Source: a virus. From it: a stretch of 30,660 bases of DNA. The position numbers and the translations under genes were made by a program. The stretch is from IMG/VR virus record IMGVR_UViG_3300036852_000048, positions 1 through 30,660 of that record. One strand, 5' to 3'. Positions 15,378 to 30,660 of the stretch are shown piece after piece. Each line of letters begins with the position of its first letter. Position 1 is the stretch's first letter. The notes under the pieces are model-generated. The model had not been told where the DNA came from. It was given only the letters and a program-made list of their open reading frames with translations, and did no database searches.

Positions 15378-15456
15378 CAGGGTGTAGGAAAGTCCAGTTT
15401 AATCCGCCCGGCCTGGAACCGGGAGAACGGTGGTGCGAATCCATCCGCCCTGACCA
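15378..15456 (+). tRNA. tRNA-Pro (UGG)
   Basis: Acceptor CAGGGTG with CGCCCTG, A73 and encoded CCA. Anticodon stem CCCGG/CCGGG with loop CCTGGAA, so the anticodon is TGG. T stem GGTGG/CCATC, loop TGCGAAT. Base 33 is C instead of the almost invariant U. Starting with C1 fits tRNA-Pro. D arm GGA/TCC with a long loop. Confidence 0.85.
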
Positions 15457-15534
15457 TTTTGCGACCCCTACCTGTTCGGGGCCGTCGCTTGCGACGGAGG
15501 GCAGCGAGCACGCTGCGGGGGACGCGTTTCTGAC
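15457..15534 (+). other. Tandem perfect hairpins between tRNA-Pro and tRNA-Gly
   Basis: CCGTCGC-TT-GCGACGG (15482-15497) and GCAGCG-AGCA-CGCTGC (15501-15516) stand back to back. An alternative stem GCGAC (15461-15465) with GTCGC (15484-15488) competes with the first. There is no cloverleaf. These could be RNase III/E processing signals. Confidence 0.5.
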
Positions 15535-15610
15535 CTGGGTGTAGTGTTTAACAGCAGCACGCGTTTCTACCAAAAATGAAGTCGGGGTGCAACTCCCCGT
15601 ACCCGGTCCA
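15535..15610 (+). tRNA. tRNA-Gly (ACC)
   Basis: Acceptor CTGGGTG with TACCCGG, T73 (usual for Gly) and CCA. Anticodon stem CGTTT/AAATG, loop CTACCAA, anticodon ACC. T arm CGGGG-TGCAACT-CCCCG. An unmodified A34 in a Gly tRNA is rare in bacteria. It would read GGU, the favoured Gly codon in this operon. Confidence 0.85.
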
Positions 15611-15617
15611 GTTTCAT

Positions 15618-15693
15618 GCGCGATTAGCTATCTGGGGATAGCGCCCGCCCTACAAGCGGGGCAAGGTGGGTCCGATTCCTACATTGCGCACCA
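15618..15693 (+). tRNA. tRNA-Val (UAC)
   Basis: Acceptor GCGCGAT with ATTGCGC, A73, CCA. D stem GCTA/TAGC. Anticodon stem CCCGC/GCGGG, loop CCTACAA, anticodon TAC. C33 replaces U33, as in the neighbouring tRNA-Pro. T arm GTGGG-TCCGATT-CCTAC. Confidence 0.87.
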
Positions 15694-15835
15694 GTTGTAA
15701 CAGGAGAGATTCAAAGGTGTAACCCGAGACCCCCTCGCTCGTGGGGGATAACGTGGGGCGCGCGGTTTCCCAACTCGGTGCAATGAATCATAAGAACGAG
15801 GCGTCGAATCACACGCCTACTCTCCGTAAGTTCGT
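15694..15835 (+). other. Structured 142-nt spacer element, no standard tRNA
   Basis: It is closed by GGAGAG (15703-15708) with CTCTCC (15820-15825), with internal stems CCCCC/GGGGG (15730-15747) and AGGCG/CGCCT (15799-15818). The outer stem and the terminal 5-bp hairpin resemble acceptor and T arm, but there is no T-loop sequence, no CCA and the middle is far too long. It may be a degenerate or intron-split tRNA, or an unrelated small RNA. Confidence 0.45.
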
Positions 15836-15919
15836 GCCCTCTTGATGTAATGGCAGCCATGCTAGTTTTAGAAACTAGTGCCGAAAGGCGTAGAGGTTCG
15901 ACTCCTCTAGAGGGTACCA
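15836..15919 (+). tRNA. tRNA-Leu (UAG)
   Basis: Acceptor GCCCTCT with AGAGGGT, A73, CCA. Anticodon stem CTAGT/ACTAG, loop TTTAGAA, anticodon TAG. Long variable arm GCC-GAAA-GGC, the class II mark of Leu. T arm AGAGG-TTCGACT-CCTCT. Confidence 0.93.
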
Positions 15920-16015
15920 ATTTGACGCACCGGCCAATGCCAGGAAGTGTACATTACCTGGGAACATTGAGAGTGAGGGCTTATGCTATGCCGGTATCGA
16001 GCCCTGCCAATTCGT
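15920..16015 (+). other. Spacer with a CCA-ended minihelix
   Basis: CCAGG/CCTGG (15940-15961) is followed by a hairpin AGGGCT (15976-15981) with AGCCCT (16000-16005), which is immediately followed by GCCA. The second hairpin thus looks like an acceptor minihelix, but with only 18 nt inside it cannot be a tRNA. Confidence 0.4.
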
Positions 16016-16099
16016 AGCCATATGGCGGAACAGCAGACGCGGCGGACTCAAAACCCGCTGCCGCAAGGCGTGAGGGTGCGATTCCCTCTATGGCCACCA
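16016..16099 (+). tRNA. tRNA-Leu (CAA)
   Basis: Acceptor AGCCATA with TATGGCC, A73, CCA. The first pair is A1-C72, a mismatch. Anticodon loop CTCAAAA, anticodon CAA, with an A31-C39 mismatch at the loop base. Variable arm GCC-GCAA-GGC confirms class II. T arm GAGGG-TGCGATT-CCCTC. Confidence 0.85.
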
Positions 16100-16209
16100 A
16101 TGTTGCGTGGAGTCCACCCAGTCGGGGAATAACTGTGGACCTAGTGGGGGTTTTACTTGCGTGGGCTCTGCCTGCCCCCTTGACTAGCAGAGCATCTGGC
16201 CCGACATAT
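16100..16209 (+). other. Structured spacer between tRNA-Leu and tRNA-Ile
   Basis: Stems GTCCAC (16112-16117) with GTGGAC (16135-16140), and CTCTGC (16166-16171) with GCAGAG (16187-16192). An alternative pairs GGGGG (16146-16150) with CCCCC further down. There is no cloverleaf and no CCA end. Confidence 0.45.
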
Positions 16210-16283
16210 ACGTGCTTGGTGTAACAGCAGCACTGCCGCCCGATTAGCGGTAAGCCATGGTGCAAATCCATGAGCACGTACCA
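16210..16283 (+). tRNA. tRNA-Ile (GAU) with unusual anticodon loop
   Basis: Acceptor ACGTGCT with AGCACGT (perfect), A73, CCA. D stem GTG/CAC. Anticodon stem GCCGC/GCGGT, loop CCGATTA, anticodon GAT. Two normally fixed loop positions differ: C33 for U33, and U37 for a purine. T arm CATGG-TGCAAAT-CCATG. The amino acid follows from the anticodon only. Confidence 0.75.
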
Positions 16284-16286
16284 AAT

Positions 16287-16360
16287 CGCTGCTTCATCCA
16301 ACAGCAGGATGCCTGCCTTATTAGCGGGTCATGAGAGTGCGAATCCCTCAGCAGCTACCA
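16287..16360 (+). tRNA. tRNA-Ile (UAU) with unusual anticodon loop
   Basis: Acceptor CGCTGCT with AGCAGCT; positions 1 and 72 (C-U) do not pair. A73, CCA. D stem ATCC/GGAT. Anticodon stem CCTGC/GCGGG, loop CTTATTA, anticodon TAT, with U37 as in the previous tRNA. Bacteria usually read AUA with a modified CAU anticodon, so a UAU tRNA is uncommon. T arm with one mismatch. Confidence 0.7.
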
Positions 16361-16361
16361 T

Positions 16362-16438
16362 CTCCCATTAGCTCAGTGGACCAGAGCGCGGAGCTTCTAC
16401 CTCCAAGGTCGAGGGTTCGAATCCTTCATGGGAGCCCA
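16362..16438 (+). tRNA. tRNA-Arg (UCU)
   Basis: Acceptor CTCCCAT with ATGGGAG, C73, CCA. D stem GCTC/GAGC. Anticodon loop CTTCTAC, anticodon TCT. T arm GAGGG-TTCGAAT-CCTTC. It reads the AGA/AGG codons that are rare in many hosts. Confidence 0.9.
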
Positions 16439-16560
16439 GAAATTAGGACCAGCTAGCTTGGCGTGTGCCGTCATAAGCTTGCTTCGGCAAGGAAAGGGCC
16501 ACGGGAAGGGGACGCCCTTCTTAGGTTACAGCCCGTGGCAGTCGGGCCTGGTTCAACATC
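16439..16560 (+). ncRNA. Highly structured 120-nt RNA candidate within the tRNA array
   Basis: It is closed by GGACCAG (16446-16452) with CTGGTTC (16548-16554). Inside are AGCTT/AAGCT with an inner GGC-GTGT-GCC, a CTTGC-TTCG-GCAAG hairpin with UUCG tetraloop (16478-16491), and an 8-bp stem GCCACGGG (16498-16505) with CCCGTGGC (16532-16539) enclosing AAGGG-GACG-CCCTT. Some stems are mutually exclusive. The folding quality is higher than expected for a spacer. It has no anticodon arm and no coding piece I can recognise, so it is neither a tRNA nor a clear tmRNA. Confidence 0.5.
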
Positions 16561-16638
16561 GTCCCTATAGCTCAGTTAGATTAGAGCATTCAGCTACGAA
16601 CTGAAAGGTCGAGGGTGCAAGTCCTTCTAGGGATACCA
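16561..16638 (+). tRNA. tRNA-Arg (ACG)
   Basis: Acceptor GTCCCTA with TAGGGAT, A73, CCA. D stem GCTC/GAGC. Anticodon stem TTCAG/CTGAA, loop CTACGAA, anticodon ACG (A34 normally becomes inosine in Arg). T arm GAGGG-TGCAAGT-CCTTC. Confidence 0.92.
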
Positions 16639-16643
16639 TATAT

Positions 16644-16714
16644 GGACGGGGCGTAAGACGCAAGCGTGTCTCCAAAACATGCTATCGTGGGAGCGTTACC
16701 TACACCGTTCGCCA
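16644..16714 (+). tRNA. tRNA-Trp (CCA) with shortened D arm and odd T loop
   Basis: Acceptor GGACGGG with ACCGTTC, G73 (correct for Trp), CCA. Anticodon stem CGTGT/ACATG, loop CTCCAAA, anticodon CCA. T stem GTGGG/CCTAC but loop AGCGTTA instead of a TTCGAAT type. Only 14 nt lie between acceptor and anticodon stem, forming GCGT-AAG-ACGC. It is 71 nt in total. Confidence 0.75.
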
Positions 16715-16715
16715 C

Positions 16716-16791
16716 TGGCCGTTAGTATAATGGCAATTACAGCGGACTCTTAATCCGCACGATGGGGGTTCAAGTCCCCTGCGGCCAACCA
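16716..16791 (+). tRNA. tRNA-Lys (CUU)
   Basis: Acceptor TGGCCGT with GCGGCCA, A73, CCA. Anticodon stem GCGGA/TCCGC, loop CTCTTAA, anticodon CTT. T arm GGGGG-TTCAAGT-CCCCT. It begins two bases after tRNA-Trp ends. Confidence 0.92.
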
Positions 16792-16798
16792 GTTTCAC

Positions 16799-16872
16799 TC
16801 CCTTGTGATGTAGCGGCAGCATACTTGGCTGTTAACCATGGCGCGTTGGTTCGAATCCAGCCGAGGGAGCCA
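16799..16872 (+). tRNA. tRNA-Asn (GUU)
   Basis: Acceptor TCCCTTG with CGAGGGA, G73 (usual for Asn), CCA. D stem ATG/CAT. Anticodon loop CTGTTAA, anticodon GTT. T arm GTTGG-TTCGAAT-CCAGC. Confidence 0.92.
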
Positions 16873-16948
16873 TTCAGGGACGCCTTAAGGTATGGATAAG
16901 AGCCCATGCGGTTCGGTCGTGCGCACGACCGTCCATCCTAAGTTCAAC
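16873..16948 (+). other. Perfect-palindrome hairpin element between tRNA-Asn and tRNA-Ser
   Basis: An outer stem of about 11 bp (16884-16896 with 16932-16942) encloses the 16-bp perfect palindrome GGTCGTGCGCACGACC (16915-16930). There is no cloverleaf. It is similar in style to the other spacer elements. Confidence 0.5.
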
Positions 16949-17035
16949 GGTAGCTTCGCATAACGGCATTGCACTTGGTTGCTAACCAAGCGACCTGCGA
17001 GGGTTGTGTAGGTTCGAATCCTACAGCTACCGCCA
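16949..17035 (+). tRNA. tRNA-Ser (GCU)
   Basis: Acceptor GGTAGCT with AGCTACC (perfect), G73 (Ser), CCA. Anticodon stem CTTGG/CCAAG, loop TTGCTAA, anticodon GCT. Long variable arm. T arm GTAGG-TTCGAAT-CCTAC. Confidence 0.94.
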
Positions 17036-17046
17036 TTTAGTTTCAC

Positions 17047-17138
17047 GGAAGATTAGTCTAGCGGCAAGGCACCTGTCTTGAAAACAGGCGAATCGGTGAA
17101 GAGCCGATGCACAGGTTCGAGTCCTGTATCTTCCGCCA
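17047..17138 (+). tRNA. tRNA-Ser (UGA)
   Basis: Acceptor GGAAGAT with ATCTTCC (perfect), G73, CCA. Anticodon stem CCTGT/ACAGG, loop CTTGAAA, anticodon TGA. Variable arm ATCGG/CCGAT. T arm ACAGG-TTCGAGT-CCTGT. Confidence 0.95.
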
Positions 17139-17140
17139 AT

Positions 17141-17215
17141 TGCCTCTTAGCTCAGTAGTAGAGCGAGGGTCTGAAAAGCCCTGCGTCGCTGGTGCGAACC
17201 CAGCAGAGGCAGCCA
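17141..17215 (+). tRNA. tRNA-Phe (GAA)
   Basis: Acceptor TGCCTCT with AGAGGCA, CCA. D stem GCTC/GAGC. Anticodon stem AGGGT/GCCCT, loop CTGAAAA, anticodon GAA. T arm GCTGG-TGCGAAC-CCAGC. The discriminator is G, whereas bacterial Phe tRNAs usually have A73. Confidence 0.9.
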
Positions 17216-17216
17216 A

Positions 17217-17291
17217 TGTGGTGAGAGGTCTGGTGACCCATCTGGTCTCATAAGCCAAGAAGGCTGAGTTCGATTCTCAGCACCGCAACCA
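17217..17291 (+). tRNA. tRNA-Met (CAU), elongator type
   Basis: Acceptor TGTGGTG with CACCGCA, A73, CCA. Positions 1-72 pair (T-A), so it is not an initiator. Anticodon loop CTCATAA, anticodon CAT; the stem has one mismatch and one wobble. Short D arm GGTC-TGGT-GACC. T arm CTGAG-TTCGATT-CTCAG. A C34-modified Ile tRNA cannot be excluded. Confidence 0.85.
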
Positions 17292-17295
17292 TTAT

Positions 17296-17367
17296 GGGGA
17301 TGTGCGTCGGGACGCGAATCTTCCTTGCAAGAAGGTTCCGAGGGTTCAACTCCCTACTTCTCCACCA
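17296..17367 (+). tRNA. tRNA-Ala (UGC)
   Basis: Acceptor GGGGATG with CTTCTCC. The third pair is G3-U70, the established identity element for alanyl-tRNA synthetase. A73, CCA. Anticodon stem TCTTC/GAAGG, loop CTTGCAA, anticodon TGC. The D arm is very short (GCGT-CGGG-ACGC). T loop TTCAACT. Confidence 0.85.
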
Positions 17368-17374
17368 GTTCCAC

Positions 17375-17449
17375 GGTGTTTGTAGATCAACAGCAGATCG
17401 TCGCCCTGTGAAGGCGAAAATGAGGGGGCGGAACCCTCCAATCACCCCA
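17375..17449 (+). tRNA. tRNA-His (GUG) with non-standard T loop
   Basis: G-1 at 17375 faces C73, the histidine identity pair. Acceptor GTGTTTG with CAATCAC (one mismatch), CCA. D stem GATC/GATC. Anticodon stem TCGCC/GGCGA, loop CTGTGAA, anticodon GTG. T stem GAGGG/CCCTC, but the loop is GGCGGAA, lacking the T54-T55-C56 pattern. Confidence 0.82.
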
Positions 17450-17456
17450 GTTGTAC

Positions 17457-17532
17457 GGTTCGTAAGACAACAAGTGGAGTCGCTCCCCTGTCACGGGAGA
17501 GACGACGGGGGCAGTACCCGTACGAATCGCCA
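17457..17532 (+). tRNA. tRNA-Asp (GUC) with non-standard T loop
   Basis: Acceptor GGTTCGT with ACGAATC, G73 (Asp), CCA. Anticodon stem CTCCC/GGGAG, loop CTGTCAC, anticodon GTC. T stem ACGGG/CCCGT with loop GGCAGTA, again without the TTC pattern. Confidence 0.82.
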
Positions 17533-17538
17533 GTACGA

Positions 17539-17612
17539 GTCGACTTAGTATAGTGGCAGAATCCGCCTTTCGTAAGGACGGGGCGAGGGTTCGATTCCTT
17601 CAGTCGGCTCCA
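17539..17612 (+). tRNA. tRNA-Thr (CGU)
   Basis: Acceptor GTCGACT with AGTCGGC, T73, CCA. Anticodon stem CGCCT/GGACG (one mismatch), loop TTCGTAA, anticodon CGT. T arm GAGGG-TTCGATT-CCTTC. The D stem is weak. Confidence 0.85.
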
Positions 17613-17617
17613 TTTCT

Positions 17618-17705
17618 GCAAGCATAGTCAAGCGGCCAACGACGGCGAGCTGTAAACTCGCAGGCATTGCGACCTACGGTGGTTCGAATCCATCTGCTTG
17701 CACCA
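17618..17705 (+). tRNA. tRNA-Tyr (GUA)
   Basis: Acceptor GCAAGCA with TGCTTGC (perfect), A73, CCA. D stem GTC/GAC. Anticodon stem GCGAG/CTCGC, loop CTGTAAA, anticodon GTA. Long variable arm as expected for bacterial Tyr. T arm GGTGG-TTCGAAT-CCATC. Confidence 0.95.
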
Positions 17706-17708
17706 TTT

Positions 17709-17783
17709 CACCCTATCTTCTAACAGACAGGAAAGCGCCCTCTCAAGGCGCGAATCGGGGTGCGACTCCCCGTGGGGTGACCA
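17709..17783 (+). tRNA. tRNA-Glu (CUC)
   Basis: Acceptor CACCCTA with TGGGGTG, A73, CCA. Anticodon stem GCGCC/GGCGC, loop CTCTCAA, anticodon CTC. T arm CGGGG-TGCGACT-CCCCG. C1 is unusual for Glu. Confidence 0.88.
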
Positions 17784-17790
17784 ATTCAAT

Positions 17791-17864
17791 GATGCCTTGG
17801 CTGAGCAGTCAAGCGCGCGGCTGCAACCCGCGAGAGGTTGGTGCAACTCCAACAGGTATCTCCA
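17791..17864 (+). tRNA. tRNA-Cys (GCA)
   Basis: Acceptor GATGCCT with AGGTATC, T73 (correct for Cys), CCA. Anticodon stem CGCGG/CCGCG, loop CTGCAAC, anticodon GCA. T arm GTTGG-TGCAACT-CCAAC. Confidence 0.92.
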
Positions 17865-17870
17865 TTTCAC

Positions 17871-17944
17871 TTTGGGTTCGTTTAACGGCAGGACCGGGGT
17901 CTCTGAAGCCCCAGATGTTGGTTCGATTCCAGCACCCAAAGCCA
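17871..17944 (+). tRNA. tRNA-Gln (CUG)
   Basis: Acceptor TTTGGGT with ACCCAAA, weak T1-A72 pair and G73 (both typical of Gln), CCA. Anticodon stem GGGGT/GCCCC, loop CTCTGAA, anticodon CTG. T arm GTTGG-TTCGATT-CCAGC. It is the last tRNA of the array. Confidence 0.93.
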
Positions 17945-26428: not shown

Positions 26429-26785
26429 ATGGCTACGTTTTCTAAGAGCAAACTTTCTGGTTCAACCGACGGTAAGGGTGTCCTTGTCGTAGCATCTGCT
26501 ACTCCTGGCACGACTATTCATACGGCCGGTGCAGTAACGGGTGATGACAACTTCGACGAAATCTGGTTGTGGGCTATGAATACGGACACGACTGCCCGCA
26601 AACTGACGCTTGAAATCGGTGGTACGACGGTCGGCTTCCTGGACGAAGTAACCATCGGCCCTGAAGAGGGTTTTGTATTGGTCTGTCCGGGTCTAATTCT
26701 GCAGAACGCGGCTGTGCTTGCGGCATTCGCATCAGTAGCTAGCGTAGTCAACCTACATGGATTCGTGAACAAGATTCGTGCCTAA
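26429..26785 (+). CDS. Small virion protein before the repeat-peptide cassette
   Basis: A 118-residue beta-rich protein (G-V-L-V-V-A-S-A-T-P-G-T-T-I-H-T-A; K-L-T-L-E-I-G-G-T-T-V-G-F-L-D-E-V-T-I). AAGGAC SD-like sequence. A hydrophobic C-terminal stretch A-A-V-L-A-A-F-A-S-V-A-S-V is not long enough to be a clear membrane helix. It is likely a decoration or tail-tip protein and TAATG-couples to the repeat-peptide gene. Confidence 0.6.
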   Translation: MATFSKSKLSGSTDGKGVLVVASATPGTTIHTAGAVTGDDNFDEIWLWAMNTDTTARKLTLEIGGTTVGFLDEVTIGPEEGFVLVCPGLILQNAAVLAAFASVASVVNLHGFVNKIRA

Positions 26786-27171
26786 TGTATTGGCGTCGTA
26801 ATCTCAATGTTGCAGATGGCATCGGTGTACGTGCAACAAAGTGGCCTGGTAGACCGCACATTATTAACCAGCACTCTGATGTTGCACACAGCGATGCTGC
26901 GCACTCAGACGTAGCGCACACTGACGCTGCCCATTCCGATTCATCATCGCACAGCGACGTAGCGCACAGCGACGTGGCCCATGGTGATGCCCAAGACAAG
27001 CAGCATACTGACTCTCCGCATAGTGATACTGCACACAGCGATTCTACGTCGCATTCTGATGTAGCCCACGGTGACGTGGCTCACACAGACGTGGCTCATG
27101 GTGACGTAGCACACATTGATACAACAACTCCGGGACAGACTTCGCAGCTAGGCCACGGACGTAAAATCTAA
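26785..27171 (+). CDS. His-x-Asp repeat peptide, candidate modification substrate
   Basis: A 128-residue protein. Residues 1-29 form a leader-like part (M-Y-W-R-R-N-L-N-V-A-D-G-I-G-V-R-A-T-K-W) that is basic and aromatic. Residues 30-112 are 16 units of H-(S/T/G/I)-D, mostly in five-residue steps H-S-D-V-A, with two matching six-residue units (H-S-D-S-S-S and H-S-D-S-T-S) that mark a twofold super-repeat. Residues 113-128 are a Thr/Gly-rich tail ending G-H-G-R-K-I. No cysteines. Its stop overlaps the GNAT-like gene, and a radical SAM/SPASM enzyme lies two genes further on. It could be a RiPP-like substrate or a metal-binding virion repeat. Confidence 0.7.
   Translation: MYWRRNLNVADGIGVRATKWPGRPHIINQHSDVAHSDAAHSDVAHTDAAHSDSSSHSDVAHSDVAHGDAQDKQHTDSPHSDTAHSDSTSHSDVAHGDVAHTDVAHGDVAHIDTTTPGQTSQLGHGRKI
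26872..27120 (+). repeat. Coding repeat of H-x-D units
   Basis: 16 units encode H-x-D, usually as 15-nt steps. His and Asp codons change between units (CAC/CAT, GAT/GAC) and the spacer codons vary freely, while the protein pattern holds. That indicates selection on the peptide rather than recent DNA slippage. Confidence 0.8.
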
Positions 27172-28337
27172 TGGCACTTACGCCTCCTAACGATTTGTCA
27201 CTACATCCGCTCTGGAATCACGCTGTGTCGTGGTGTCATTATGAGAGCCTGCCGGTTGACGATGAAACGATCAATCCGCTCATGGACCAATTCCAGAATC
27301 TCAATCTGGTTCGTCCTGTACTTCCTTATGAGTTCACCCAGGTACCCGGGCTAGCGATTCGTTGGGCAACTGAAGAAGATATCCCGGCAACAGCCGAAGT
27401 AACGCTTAAGGGAGGCAACTATCCCGACGGACATCCAATTGATAAGATGCTTCGTCAGGCTATTAATGATCCTTTGGTCTGGGCGATGATTTGGGAACTA
27501 GATGGACAGCCCATTCAATTTGAAGCTATCACGCTCGGTCCTTCCGAAACCGTCTATATTAATTATCTTGTACACTTCAAGCGCACATATGCGCAATGGG
27601 TGTGGGGAGCATGTGAGACTCCGGTACGTGATTGGTTAACTGAACGCGGCTACAAGGTATTAAGATCGATGATGCGTAAGGAGCGTGCGGCATATAGACT
27701 TGAGCGCACAAAGAAAGTATACGACCTCAAGCAGATCGGTGAGGCCGGTAACTATGTGCGTCTTGAGTGGGCACTCCAAAGCGATACGTTGCCTAAGTTT
27801 CCTGCAAGAAAAACCGCAGGTATAGGTTGGGAATACACATACAAGAACGTATGGTTTCGTGAGATGAAGGATTCCGAACTTGCAACTGTACAAGACGCAA
27901 TTCGTGAGATGTTCACTGCTGCCGGTCTTAAGAACGGAGACGATGCTGCGAATCTGTTAGCGGAACGTTACCGTCTTGAGAAAGCCACAGTATTGCTAGG
28001 TTTTACAAACGGCAAGATTGCGTTCGTTCGCACTGCGCGCGAGCGCGAGCCAGGCCAGGCTGCTGTTGCTAATCTTAATCCGCTAGTGCTAAACAACGAA
28101 TCGCGTATCATGTCATACGTTGGTTTAATGTGGGTACGTTTGTTAGGTTATACATCTGCAGTTATGTTCATCCCGGCATGGCAGTATCGTTCGCCGAAGA
28201 TGAAAGCGTATCTGGCACAGATCGCTCCTTATATGACTACCTTTGAAGAGCATCCTCACTATGACGGGCCAGTATACGAAGTAGGGATCAAGGACTTTGA
28301 TCCTGTGTTAAAGGTTAATATCGAAAGCTGGGCATGA
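27171..28337 (+). CDS. Double GNAT-like protein
   Basis: A 388-residue protein. The first half (about 60-205) has W-A-T-E-E-D-I-P-A-T-A-E-V, a V-Y-I-N-Y-L-V-H strand, a helix with L-T-E-R-G-Y-K-V-L-R-S and a final strand Y-V-R-L-E-W-A-L, the order expected for a GNAT fold. The second half (about 225-385) repeats the scheme (V-W-F-R-E-M-K-D-S-E-L; T-V-L-L-G-F-T-N-G-K-I-A-F-V-R-T-A; P-V-Y-E-V-G-I-K-D-F). I do not see the usual R/Q-x-x-G-x-G/A acetyl-CoA loop in either half, so the acyl donor or even the reaction (for example aminoacyl transfer) may differ. It is coupled to the repeat peptide. Confidence 0.6.
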   Translation: MALTPPNDLSLHPLWNHAVSWCHYESLPVDDETINPLMDQFQNLNLVRPVLPYEFTQVPGLAIRWATEEDIPATAEVTLKGGNYPDGHPIDKMLRQAINDPLVWAMIWELDGQPIQFEAITLGPSETVYINYLVHFKRTYAQWVWGACETPVRDWLTERGYKVLRSMMRKERAAYRLERTKKVYDLKQIGEAGNYVRLEWALQSDTLPKFPARKTAGIGWEYTYKNVWFREMKDSELATVQDAIREMFTAAGLKNGDDAANLLAERYRLEKATVLLGFTNGKIAFVRTAREREPGQAAVANLNPLVLNNESRIMSYVGLMWVRLLGYTSAVMFIPAWQYRSPKMKAYLAQIAPYMTTFEEHPHYDGPVYEVGIKDFDPVLKVNIESWA

Positions 28338-28864
28338 TTCTGATAGAAAGCGACAGAGCCGGAGAAATCTGGCAAATGTTTGCGGATGCGTGGGGGCCGA
28401 AGGTTCTGTTGGATGCTTATGAGTGGACTGAGCCACACAAGACCGCACGCCCCTTAGAAACGTTCTACGAATACTATGACGAGGAGTTGTTAGTAGGCTG
28501 GGGTTCGTTGACAAAGCATCCATTAGCACAAGAATACTGGTTGTCTCTTGGCCTCTTCCCCAACACTGTCGACAAGCATTATTTCCGCCCGCTTAAGAAC
28601 GCACTGGTTGAAGAAGCGTTCAGTAAAGGCGCTAAGATAGTCCAGTCACTTATTATGGACAGTAATCCAGAACATCAGAATAACACAATGTCCCGTTGTG
28701 CATCTGGTCGGTCTGACGGTTGGAAATACTCCGGTCAAGTCTGGTATCCAGTCCCGTATAAGTTGTTTAGTGTGACGCGTGAGTTGTGTCCAAAGTGTAA
28801 GTATGTACTGCAGTACTGTCAATGTTGCGGTGGACATGATTTCTTGCACGGAATGGAAACCTAA
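28334..28864 (+). CDS. GNAT-like protein with cysteine knuckle
   Basis: A 176-residue protein. The core (about 45-150) has the GNAT-like order: strand E-L-L-V-G-W-G-S-L, Y-W-L-S-L-G-L-F, helix L-K-N-A-L-V-E-E-A-F-S-K-G-A-K-I-V, strand S-L-I-M-D-S-N-P-E-H-Q-N-N, then G-W-K-Y-S-G-Q-V-W-Y and a last strand K-L-F-S-V-T-R. The tail carries C152, C155, C162, C164, C165 and H168, a metal site. It overlaps the upstream gene by 4 nt (ATGA). It may modify the repeat peptide or the host. Confidence 0.6.
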   Translation: MILIESDRAGEIWQMFADAWGPKVLLDAYEWTEPHKTARPLETFYEYYDEELLVGWGSLTKHPLAQEYWLSLGLFPNTVDKHYFRPLKNALVEEAFSKGAKIVQSLIMDSNPEHQNNTMSRCASGRSDGWKYSGQVWYPVPYKLFSVTRELCPKCKYVLQYCQCCGGHDFLHGMET

Positions 28865-29982
28865 TGTCAGGGTTGACTCTAGTCCCAATTGCAGGTTGCA
28901 ATATGGGATGCAACGGCTGCTATGAGGGCGAGATTTTCCGTCAGAACGGTAATAAGCCGCTGCCGTATGATCTGGAAGCCATCAAGGCGAAGATCAAGTC
29001 AGGCCCTCGCGGGCCTGCGGTATTACACGGCGGTGAGATTACGCTCATGCCGGTCCCGGATATCGAGAAACTGTGCGAGGCTATCAAGGAAGATGGCCGC
29101 ACGATTTCAATGCAGACCAATGGAGCGCTGATTACCCCCGCTCTGATGAAGGTTCTGAAGGATTATGAGGTAAATGTAGGAGTTAGCATCAATGGACCCT
29201 CTATCCTTAACCGTGATCGGCGCGCTGCGCCTCATACTACGAAGATTCCTGAAGAAATTCTCATCAAAGCTACTGACAAACTAACGGAACGCATCGAGAA
29301 CAACATCTTTCGCATGCTCGACGCGGGTATTTGGGCCGGACTTATCACGGTTCTGAGCCAAACCAACGCCGGTAACGACAGCAAGATCAACCTGCTGATC
29401 GACTGGGGCCTCATGATGGAGGCTCGCGGTGTAAAGAACCACAGATGGAACCTCTTACACCAGGATTTCGACACTCCTAGAGTGGAATTAACGCCAGAGC
29501 AGGCGTTGCTGGTGTATAAGAAGCTAATTGGTACGACTTTTGAGAATTCAACACGCTCTTGGGAGCCGTTCCGCAACATGTTCCGCAATATTGACGGCAC
29601 ACAGAATCGTGAATGTTGGTTCAGTCCCTGTGATCCGTACCATACCGCAGCCGTACACGCGGTTTTCAATGATGGCAGTGAAGGAAACTGTTTACGTACC
29701 GCAAAAGACGGCATTCCGTACCTGCGTGCAGAAGATGGCGAGCAACATCACCGTCAGGAGTTACTCATTTCGATTCCATTTGCTGATGGTGGCTGCGGGG
29801 GTTGTCCTTGGTGGAAGGTTTGCTACGGTGGCTGTCCGGGTGAAGCTGTAGACGGTGATTGGCGCAACAAGACGAGATTCTGCACGACGTTCATTGGAAC
29901 GTACGAGCACCTAGTCGAGAAACGGAGAGCATATGGCGCTGATTGGCGTCCCCGATTTGCTGACGAATCTACCAAAGACTAA
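28864..29982 (+). CDS. Radical SAM/SPASM enzyme
   Basis: A 372-residue protein. The cluster motif C12-x3-C16-x2-C19-Y binds the [4Fe-4S] that cleaves S-adenosylmethionine. H-G-G-E (55-58) supplies the GGE motif of the SAM site, and S-M-Q-T-N-G (82-87) and V-G-V-S-I-N-G (105-111) match core barrel strands. The C-terminal half has C251, C256, C276, C311, C314, C320, C324 and C340 in the order of a SPASM domain holding auxiliary clusters, as in peptide-modifying maturases (anSME, PqqE-like, RiPP enzymes). Its neighbour in the same operon is the H-x-D repeat peptide. It is likely a peptide or protein modification enzyme. Confidence 0.85.
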   Translation: MSGLTLVPIAGCNMGCNGCYEGEIFRQNGNKPLPYDLEAIKAKIKSGPRGPAVLHGGEITLMPVPDIEKLCEAIKEDGRTISMQTNGALITPALMKVLKDYEVNVGVSINGPSILNRDRRAAPHTTKIPEEILIKATDKLTERIENNIFRMLDAGIWAGLITVLSQTNAGNDSKINLLIDWGLMMEARGVKNHRWNLLHQDFDTPRVELTPEQALLVYKKLIGTTFENSTRSWEPFRNMFRNIDGTQNRECWFSPCDPYHTAAVHAVFNDGSEGNCLRTAKDGIPYLRAEDGEQHHRQELLISIPFADGGCGGCPWWKVCYGGCPGEAVDGDWRNKTRFCTTFIGTYEHLVEKRRAYGADWRPRFADESTKD

Positions 29983-30660
29983 CTTCGTTCGCACCGTATA
30001 CCACAACGAAGCAGCACGCCAGCGATTCGCTCCGTTCCTAGCCGAATACGGCAATGCGTGGCTCGAAGCCGAGCAAATGAGCGTGCTAGAGGATATTCGC
30101 CCGCTATGTTTGCAGCCTATGTCGCAACCCGAGTACCTCGCGTTCCTGCCTTGGGCTCATGACAACGGATTGCACGCGCGAGTGAAACGATTCGCGGGGG
30201 CATTCCAAGGATTCTCGCATTACTACACTGAAGGTTCCGACATTCTGGTGGTAGCGATGAGCAAAGAGCGGGACATGGTCGAATCCGACAACTGTGAGCA
30301 GTTTCTTGGATATCCAGAATGCTGCCAAACCTTCTTCGCTGCCAATTTTCCTAAGTATATAGACCCAGTGTTGCAATGGGCCAACTACGAAGACTCTGTA
30401 GTCACAGATTCAGCCTGCAACCCTGTACTTAGACCGCTAGGCGTGCGGGGAGTATCACATATCCCGTGCAGTACGCTTTGTTCCGAGTCAATCTCGGTTC
30501 GTAATGCGATGCGGCGTGTCCTACCGCTAGAACTAGCCATGATTGCTGATGATGTACTGACCGCTCCCATGTCCTGGGACTGCTACCGTGGTATCGCTAT
30601 CGTAAAGACTCCATGGTTCCGTACAATCTATCGCAGCGTACCCTATAAAAACAAGGTTGT
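29933..30660 (+). CDS. DUF483-like cysteine protein, C-terminus outside window
   Basis: The open frame runs from an ATG at 29933 (GGAGA SD 8 nt upstream; 50 nt overlap with the SAM gene) to the window edge, 242 codons. F-L-G-Y-P-E-C-C (125-131) and H-I-P-C-x3-C (176-183) with C121 and C162 recall the G-Y-P-x-C-C and H-x-P-C-x3-C signatures of DUF483 proteins, whose role is unknown to me. The N-terminal 100 residues are mixed alpha/beta. Its place next to the radical SAM enzyme suggests a partner in the same pathway, for example carrying the peptide or a metal. Confidence 0.6.
   Translation, partial: MALIGVPDLLTNLPKTNFVRTVYHNEAARQRFAPFLAEYGNAWLEAEQMSVLEDIRPLCLQPMSQPEYLAFLPWAHDNGLHARVKRFAGAFQGFSHYYTEGSDILVVAMSKERDMVESDNCEQFLGYPECCQTFFAANFPKYIDPVLQWANYEDSVVTDSACNPVLRPLGVRGVSHIPCSTLCSESISVRNAMRRVLPLELAMIADDVLTAPMSWDCYRGIAIVKTPWFRTIYRSVPYKNKV

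Follow-up and report, generated by a model that had tools for sequence, protein, structure and literature searches.

Gene organization of the locus

The window, i.e. the entire stretch of viral DNA analyzed here (IMG/VR record IMGVR_UViG_3300036852_000048), is a record of 30,660 bases coding for a terminase, a portal-like protein and a major-head protein, followed by co-oriented virion-region genes that run into a terminal gene cluster. This cluster comprises five overlapping ORFs that share the same orientation and lie 3' of the virion genes:

26429..26785, + strand: virion-region gene, phrog_30535; the array start overlaps its end
26785..27171, + strand: HxD array protein (P0001), 128 aa with 16 HxD; predicted substrate
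27171..28337, + strand: 388-aa protein, unclassified; 'double GNAT-like' in the original prediction
28334..28864, + strand: 176-aa protein, unclassified, with a C-terminal Cys-rich stretch, CPKCKYVLQYCQCC
28864..29982, + strand: radical SAM (rSAM)/SPASM enzyme (P0004), 372 aa; predicted to mature the array
29933..30660, + strand: DUF483-like partner (P0005), 242 aa seen, its 3' end cut by the end of the record

Relatives of the phrog_30535 gene are also found 5' of the array in L030-L032. The original prediction had the five genes chained by stop-start overlaps: this holds for the TAATG joins at 26783-26787, 27169-27173 and 28862-28866 and for the ATGA join at 28334-28337, while the rSAM/DUF483 junction is a 50-nt overlap rather than a stop-start join. 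The joins are consistent with translational coupling. Elsewhere in the window, positions 15378-17944 hold 20 tRNA genes in 2.6 kb, an unusually high number for a 30.7-kb virus record; tRNA-His is present among these and tRNA-Asp is absent.

The two middle ORFs (27171-28337 and 28334-28864) had been read as a double GNAT and as a GNAT with a cysteine knuckle, respectively. Neither assignment was confirmed: both ORFs recovered no Pfam, NCBIfam or PHROG match above cut-off, no relatives in phage and viral collections and no significant PDB match, and an hhalign comparison with a GNAT-looking neighbor family (A5) gave no support. The AlphaFold (AF2) model of the 388-aa protein is unusable (pLDDT 33), and the 176-aa protein shows only a sub-threshold match to Zn_ribbon_6 (E 0.033). 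Counterparts of both ORFs are missing from all other loci compared, which places them outside the conserved system. Thus, they are accessory in the window and unexplained, and the conserved unit consists of three genes, those for the array, the rSAM and DUF483, in place of the five-gene set initially proposed. Ten loci, all belonging to one phage group, encode a small GNAT-looking protein 3' of DUF483 (L008:12898-13281, L012:12593-12979, L027:10831-11319 and 7 more), and an annotated GNAT gene adjoins the rSAM on a Halorussus plasmid (L251). These neighboring genes may connect to the earlier GNAT impression.

Phyletic spread of the conserved three-gene unit

A tblastn search with the rSAM gave matches covering most of the query only in the Thermus phages phiLo, phiMa and Cumys, along with one short and weak match, and the same three phages were recovered with DUF483. 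Identity to the Thermus phage proteins is 33-35% for the rSAM and 26-27% for DUF483. In Cumys, the gene directly 5' of the rSAM (Cumys_13) codes for a 343-aa protein with 54 HxD motifs, and in phiLo HxD proteins are encoded a few kilobases from the rSAM/DUF483 genes. A scan of viral contigs with the single P0004 sequence returned no match, so that alignment queries were needed; scans with rSAM or DUF483 alignments then recovered 38 more loci. A separate HxD-rich ORF is present in 39 of the 41 loci that were found by rSAM or DUF483 only (Thermus phages included). Across 68 distinct rSAM loci, DUF483 is present in 66 and an array in 61, the latter being located at most 100 bp 5' of the rSAM in 38. 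Hence, the rSAM family rarely occurs without the array and DUF483; its occurrence beside unrelated genes is what the original prediction had named as evidence against itself.

Beyond the viral contigs, a DUF483 scan of 84,980 species genomes turned up the complete unit on contigs with diverse bacterial (e.g. Sphaerisporangium, Chengkuizengella, Limnochordales, Chloroflexota and Pirellulales) and archaeal (Thermoprotei, Desulfurococcales, Micrarchaeota and Halovenus) assignments. A haloarchaeal plasmid from Halomicrococcus (L252) shows the gene order baseplate J, array, rSAM, DUF483. On the above-mentioned plasmid of Halorussus aquaticus (L251), the rSAM and DUF483 genes occur with no visible array within 17 kb; this copy is possibly a repurposed or decayed one. 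The L251 pair adjoins GNAT and MFS genes.

Co-occurrence as seen from the array

To guard against circularity, viral contigs were also searched with a DNA pattern for HxDxxHxDxxHxDxxHxD alone, without any protein query. Fixed criteria delimited 36 loci with irregular arrays: in 29 of these an rSAM of the family is encoded within the fetched stretch, and in three more (L123, L217 and L199) it is encoded elsewhere in the same record. The remaining four comprise two with DUF483 in the record and two on fragmentary records (10 and 36 kb). In a scan with a period-4 pattern, 11 of 13 arrays were accompanied by a family rSAM; the records of L453 (17.6 kb) and L469 (40 kb) contain arrays and neither enzyme. 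Perfectly regular or low-complexity HxD repeats were in no case accompanied by a family rSAM, and an FxN pattern scan yielded no new case, returning only pentapeptide repeats and chance matches. Loci from the different scans lie partly on the same contigs and the counts are not fully independent. A wide occurrence of the repeat protein without the rSAM gene had likewise been raised as counter-evidence in advance; irregular HxD arrays (29/36, plus the three above) are instead rarely found without the rSAM family.

Sequence features of the arrays

The window array contains 18 His and 18 Asp residues, with its HxD motifs mostly at a spacing of 5, and also of 6 and 8. Its 16 HxD motifs compare with a mean of 2.5 and a maximum of 8 in 20,000 shuffles, bearing out the 16-unit repeat originally described in this 128-aa protein. 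Synonymous codons are mixed along the array, which argues against a recent repeat at the DNA level and indicates that the motif has been kept at the level of the protein rather than the DNA. An origin by chance or as low-complexity sequence is ruled out by the shuffling together with the codon mixing.

For the statistics on the motif, arrays were chosen by HxD only and the His residues of those motifs were then excluded. Among all array His residues 97.7% have Asp or Asn at +2, in arrays that are defined by HxD alone. Once the HxD His residues are removed, Asp or Asn is found at +2 from 57% of Trp, 45% of Tyr and 41% of Phe residues as against 0-15% for every other residue (Fisher OR 14, p 1e-134 for enrichment at Trp/Tyr/Phe). 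The true motif is aromatic-x-[Asp/Asn] and not HxD alone, which coincides with the signature of triceptides (three-residue cyclophanes), the products of three-residue cyclophane forming enzymes (3-CyFEs). In L015 the array is mainly of FxN type (37 FxN and 6 HxD), although its rSAM shares 64% identity with rSAMs that accompany HxD/YxD arrays. A Mantel test gave only a weak signal of co-evolution between enzyme and array (r 0.16-0.21, p 0.04-0.017).

The radical SAM/SPASM enzyme

The window rSAM matches the Pfam Radical_SAM profile (PF04055, E 7e-14). Across 32 members of the family, the CX3CX2C motif and C256, C276, C311, C314, C320, C324 and C340 are invariant, with C251 conserved in more than 90%; these cysteines cover the radical SAM core and the SPASM ligands for two auxiliary clusters. 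In profile comparisons the best solved relative is the anaerobic sulfatase-maturating enzyme (anSME) 4k36, aligned over the full rSAM and SPASM length (E 3e-28). The radical SAM/SPASM assignment of the original prediction is upheld by these three lines of evidence. All 32 rSAMs also match the cyclophane-maturase models AmcB, YhhB, DynA, GrrM, XyeB and FxsB far below the cut-offs of these; for P0004, the top 3-CyFE score is 53 bits to YhhB against a cut-off of 445, and no curated 3-CyFE family cut-off is reached. Sulfatase maturases and other SPASM enzymes appear at similar E-values in the same NCBIfam scan and, given that anSME is also the nearest solved structure, sequence alone leaves the reaction unfixed. 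Judged by motif and fold family, the enzyme is best described as triceptide-enzyme-like and as lying outside the described 3-CyFE families.

In 49 of the 68 loci, the rSAM has a C-terminal HxD tail of its own, typically of the form HGD...HGDHTD; the Cumys rSAM ends in HGDYTDHGDAPHGDHWDG. Such a tail may mean that the enzyme brings along a substrate of its own, or that it uses the tail to bind arrays. The window rSAM itself lacks an HxD tail. The tails (e.g. L003, L006, L007, L014, L020, L026, L030 and others) often display PHGDHTD close to the end.

These tails bear on a reading in which the array stays unmodified as a metal- or pH-sensitive binding surface of the virion, with the rSAM and DUF483 acting elsewhere, for instance in DNA modification. 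His/Asp-rich chains bind metals. The paper on Cumys and phiMa also proposes a possible role of the locus in DNA modification, citing cyanobacterial rSAM/DUF483 homologs that lie close to deazapurine DNA-modification genes (PMC11437467). However, the replacement of Asp by Asn, and of His by Phe, Tyr or Trp, fits poorly with metal binding, which the latter swaps disfavor as the main explanation, and the two-way co-occurrence of array and rSAM together with the HxD tails ties the enzyme to the motif. Accordingly, we give an unmodified array little credence.

The DUF483 partner

On its own P0005, the 3' end of which is cut by the end of the record, scores 15.8 bits against PF04467, below the Pfam cut-off of 25; it is through the family profile, with 26 of 33 members matching PF04467 at E<=0.01, that the initial DUF483-like call is supported. 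P128, C130, C131 and C183 are invariant in the 33 sequences, as are E47 and D144 in a trimmed set of 29. The AlphaFold (AF2) model of P0005 is confident (pLDDT 90.6) and has no Foldseek match at E<=0.001; the best VIA-align match is to 2guk (Z 7.2 over 92 residues) and may reflect a common arrangement. Fusions of the rSAM and DUF483 are seen in L049, L054 and L061, and between roughly one third and one half of the DUF483 members are fused to a class I methyltransferase domain. Distant DUF483 proteins, mostly from DPANN archaea, mostly occur without an array or a family rSAM, implying that DUF483 is a wider family. Our guess is that DUF483 handles the substrate or acts as the partner in a second step.

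The fused methyltransferases and the nearest solved full-length relative, anSME, both lend some weight to a ring-free modification of Asp/Asn (or of the aromatic residue) in the same substrate, e.g. β-carbon oxidation as by a sulfatase maturase, epimerization or methylation, with the methyltransferase providing a second step. The β-carbon is the position that anSME oxidizes. Nevertheless, a change confined to Asp leaves it unexplained why an aromatic residue of any type, and almost nothing else, is found at -2, and since the methyltransferase is missing in many loci it is not a core step. We therefore regard ring-free chemistry as rather unlikely, albeit a more serious contender than an unmodified array.

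Association with virion proteins

In several viruses the arrays lie on tail or other virion proteins: the array is a segment of a lambda-J-like tail protein (phrog_5616, E 6e-57) in L007, of a LamG virion protein in L013 and of a collagen-like fiber in L199, and arrays are located 3' of baseplate genes in Cumys (L002) and L252. Many arrays are likewise segments of proteins of 600-1400 aa, and the recurrent neighbor genes resemble phage structural genes. Thus, the simplest reading of arrays on virion proteins and of their structural neighbors is the maturation of a part of the virion. The window record shows no clear tail-tip protein. Small stand-alone arrays, such as the 128-aa P0001, resemble RiPP precursors, and could suggest that the repeat protein, once modified, is not a virion part and that the infected cell instead releases it, internally or to the outside, as a peptide with a bacteriocin-like or host-manipulating role. 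Against this, the arrays within large proteins include those of the tail tip J homolog and the LamG virion protein, and no transporter or peptidase family is prominent among the recurrent neighbors; a released peptide is in our estimate improbable. Comparative genomics, with the co-occurrence holding in both directions, lends strong support to the proposal that the SPASM enzyme has the repeat protein as its substrate and that the setting is that of the virion.

Proposed mechanism and relationship to known systems

Taking these observations together, we consider it probable that the unit is a virus-encoded, triceptide-like system that cross-links the aromatic-x-Asp/Asn repeats of a virion protein. 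In the predicted scheme the SPASM rSAM, aided by DUF483, would act on many aromatic-x-Asp/Asn motifs, mostly of the His-x-Asp type. The most likely reaction would be abstraction of a hydrogen from the Asp/Asn β-carbon, which would then be bonded to the ring of the aromatic residue at -2, resulting in a row of three-residue cyclophanes along the chain. These might stiffen the chain and shield the tail tip or fiber from proteases; the modified array may accordingly serve in stiffening, protease resistance or receptor binding. The broader proposition, that viruses of both bacteria and archaea install tens to more than 100 cyclophanes on their tail-tip or fiber proteins, as a previously unknown enzymatic maturation of the virion spanning two host domains, is offered more tentatively, and we would stop a little short of an even chance for it.

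A precedent for the chemistry is presented by the triceptides, with links from residue i to i+2 that include C2(His)-Cβ(Ala), C3(Tyr)-Cβ(Asp), C7(Trp)-Cβ(Asn/Asp) and C4(Phe)-Cβ(Asn) (PMC11002830). The enzymes that form them (XncB, OscB, YxdB, HaaB and YhhB) are likewise SPASM rSAMs acting on an aromatic-x-residue motif, the last residue of which is frequently Asp/Asn. Whereas their substrates are RiPP precursor peptides, those considered here are virion proteins of up to more than 1000 aa with dozens of motifs; further, unlike the triceptide systems, the viral one includes a DUF483 partner, and its rSAM falls far below their curated family cut-offs. anSME, in contrast, modifies a single Cys/Ser in sulfatases, and no sulfatase was noted in passing among the loci compared here. 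The His-Xaa-Ser system (HxsA-D), to which the locus had originally been likened, similarly combines a SPASM rSAM with a protein containing many His-x-y repeats. However, it is defined by two rSAMs (HxsB and HxsC) and HxS repeats, while here there is one rSAM and HxD; no Hxs model is among the matches of the window proteins, and the window's own record has a single Radical_SAM match. The aromatic-x-[D/N] motif favors cyclophane chemistry and disfavors the His-Xaa-Ser system.

The original prediction knew of no phage system with this gene set. That needs qualifying, as an rSAM module was named in the Thermus phages Cumys and phiMa in a 2024 paper in Viruses, which also notes similar loci in prophages and cyanobacteria (PMC11437467). 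This module shares the rSAM, DUF483 and a third gene, the Cumys_13 array, and is the same system by homology. By a term search, the repeats go unmentioned in the main text of that paper; the same text draws no link between the module and virion proteins or archaea (PMC11437467). A literature search covering few subscription papers returned no paper on phage cyclophanes or HxD arrays.

If the proposal is correct, widespread viruses would modify their own structural proteins by radical chemistry so far seen chiefly in small natural products of peptide origin, giving them a new way to harden or functionalize their particles. It would also provide a function for DUF483, an explanation for histidine-aspartate-rich virion proteins, and very large natural cyclophane polymers made by a cross-linking enzyme broadly tolerant of His, Phe, Tyr and Trp. 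The system is directly testable in the isolated phages phiLo, phiMa and Cumys of Thermus thermophilus HB8, all of which carry it.

Accessory domains and genes

Many array proteins have a common N-terminal domain in which 'GSxWVEGxxLHYIDxxGxEW' is repeated three times (L002:5928-6200, L012:9171-9450, L027:7255-7550, L047:6126-6400 and L252:7353-7650); it is possibly a docking or recognition domain, and its occurrence extends from Thermus phages to haloarchaea. These array proteins often terminate in HxDQPxxV. The product of the gene 5' of the array (L002, L012, L021, L027 and L033) often terminates in 'PVG[TA][DN][KR][WFY]', an ending also found on the J-like protein of L007. Four related loci have one additional unclassified gene, coding for about 180-245 aa, between DUF483 and the rSAM (L009:2036-2668, L010:3370-3999, L015:5463-6200 and L022:2786-3325). 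Finally, a glycosyltransferase-2-like part is fused to the DUF483 of L014, and an N-terminally similar protein is encoded near the arrays of L037, L038, L133 and L232.
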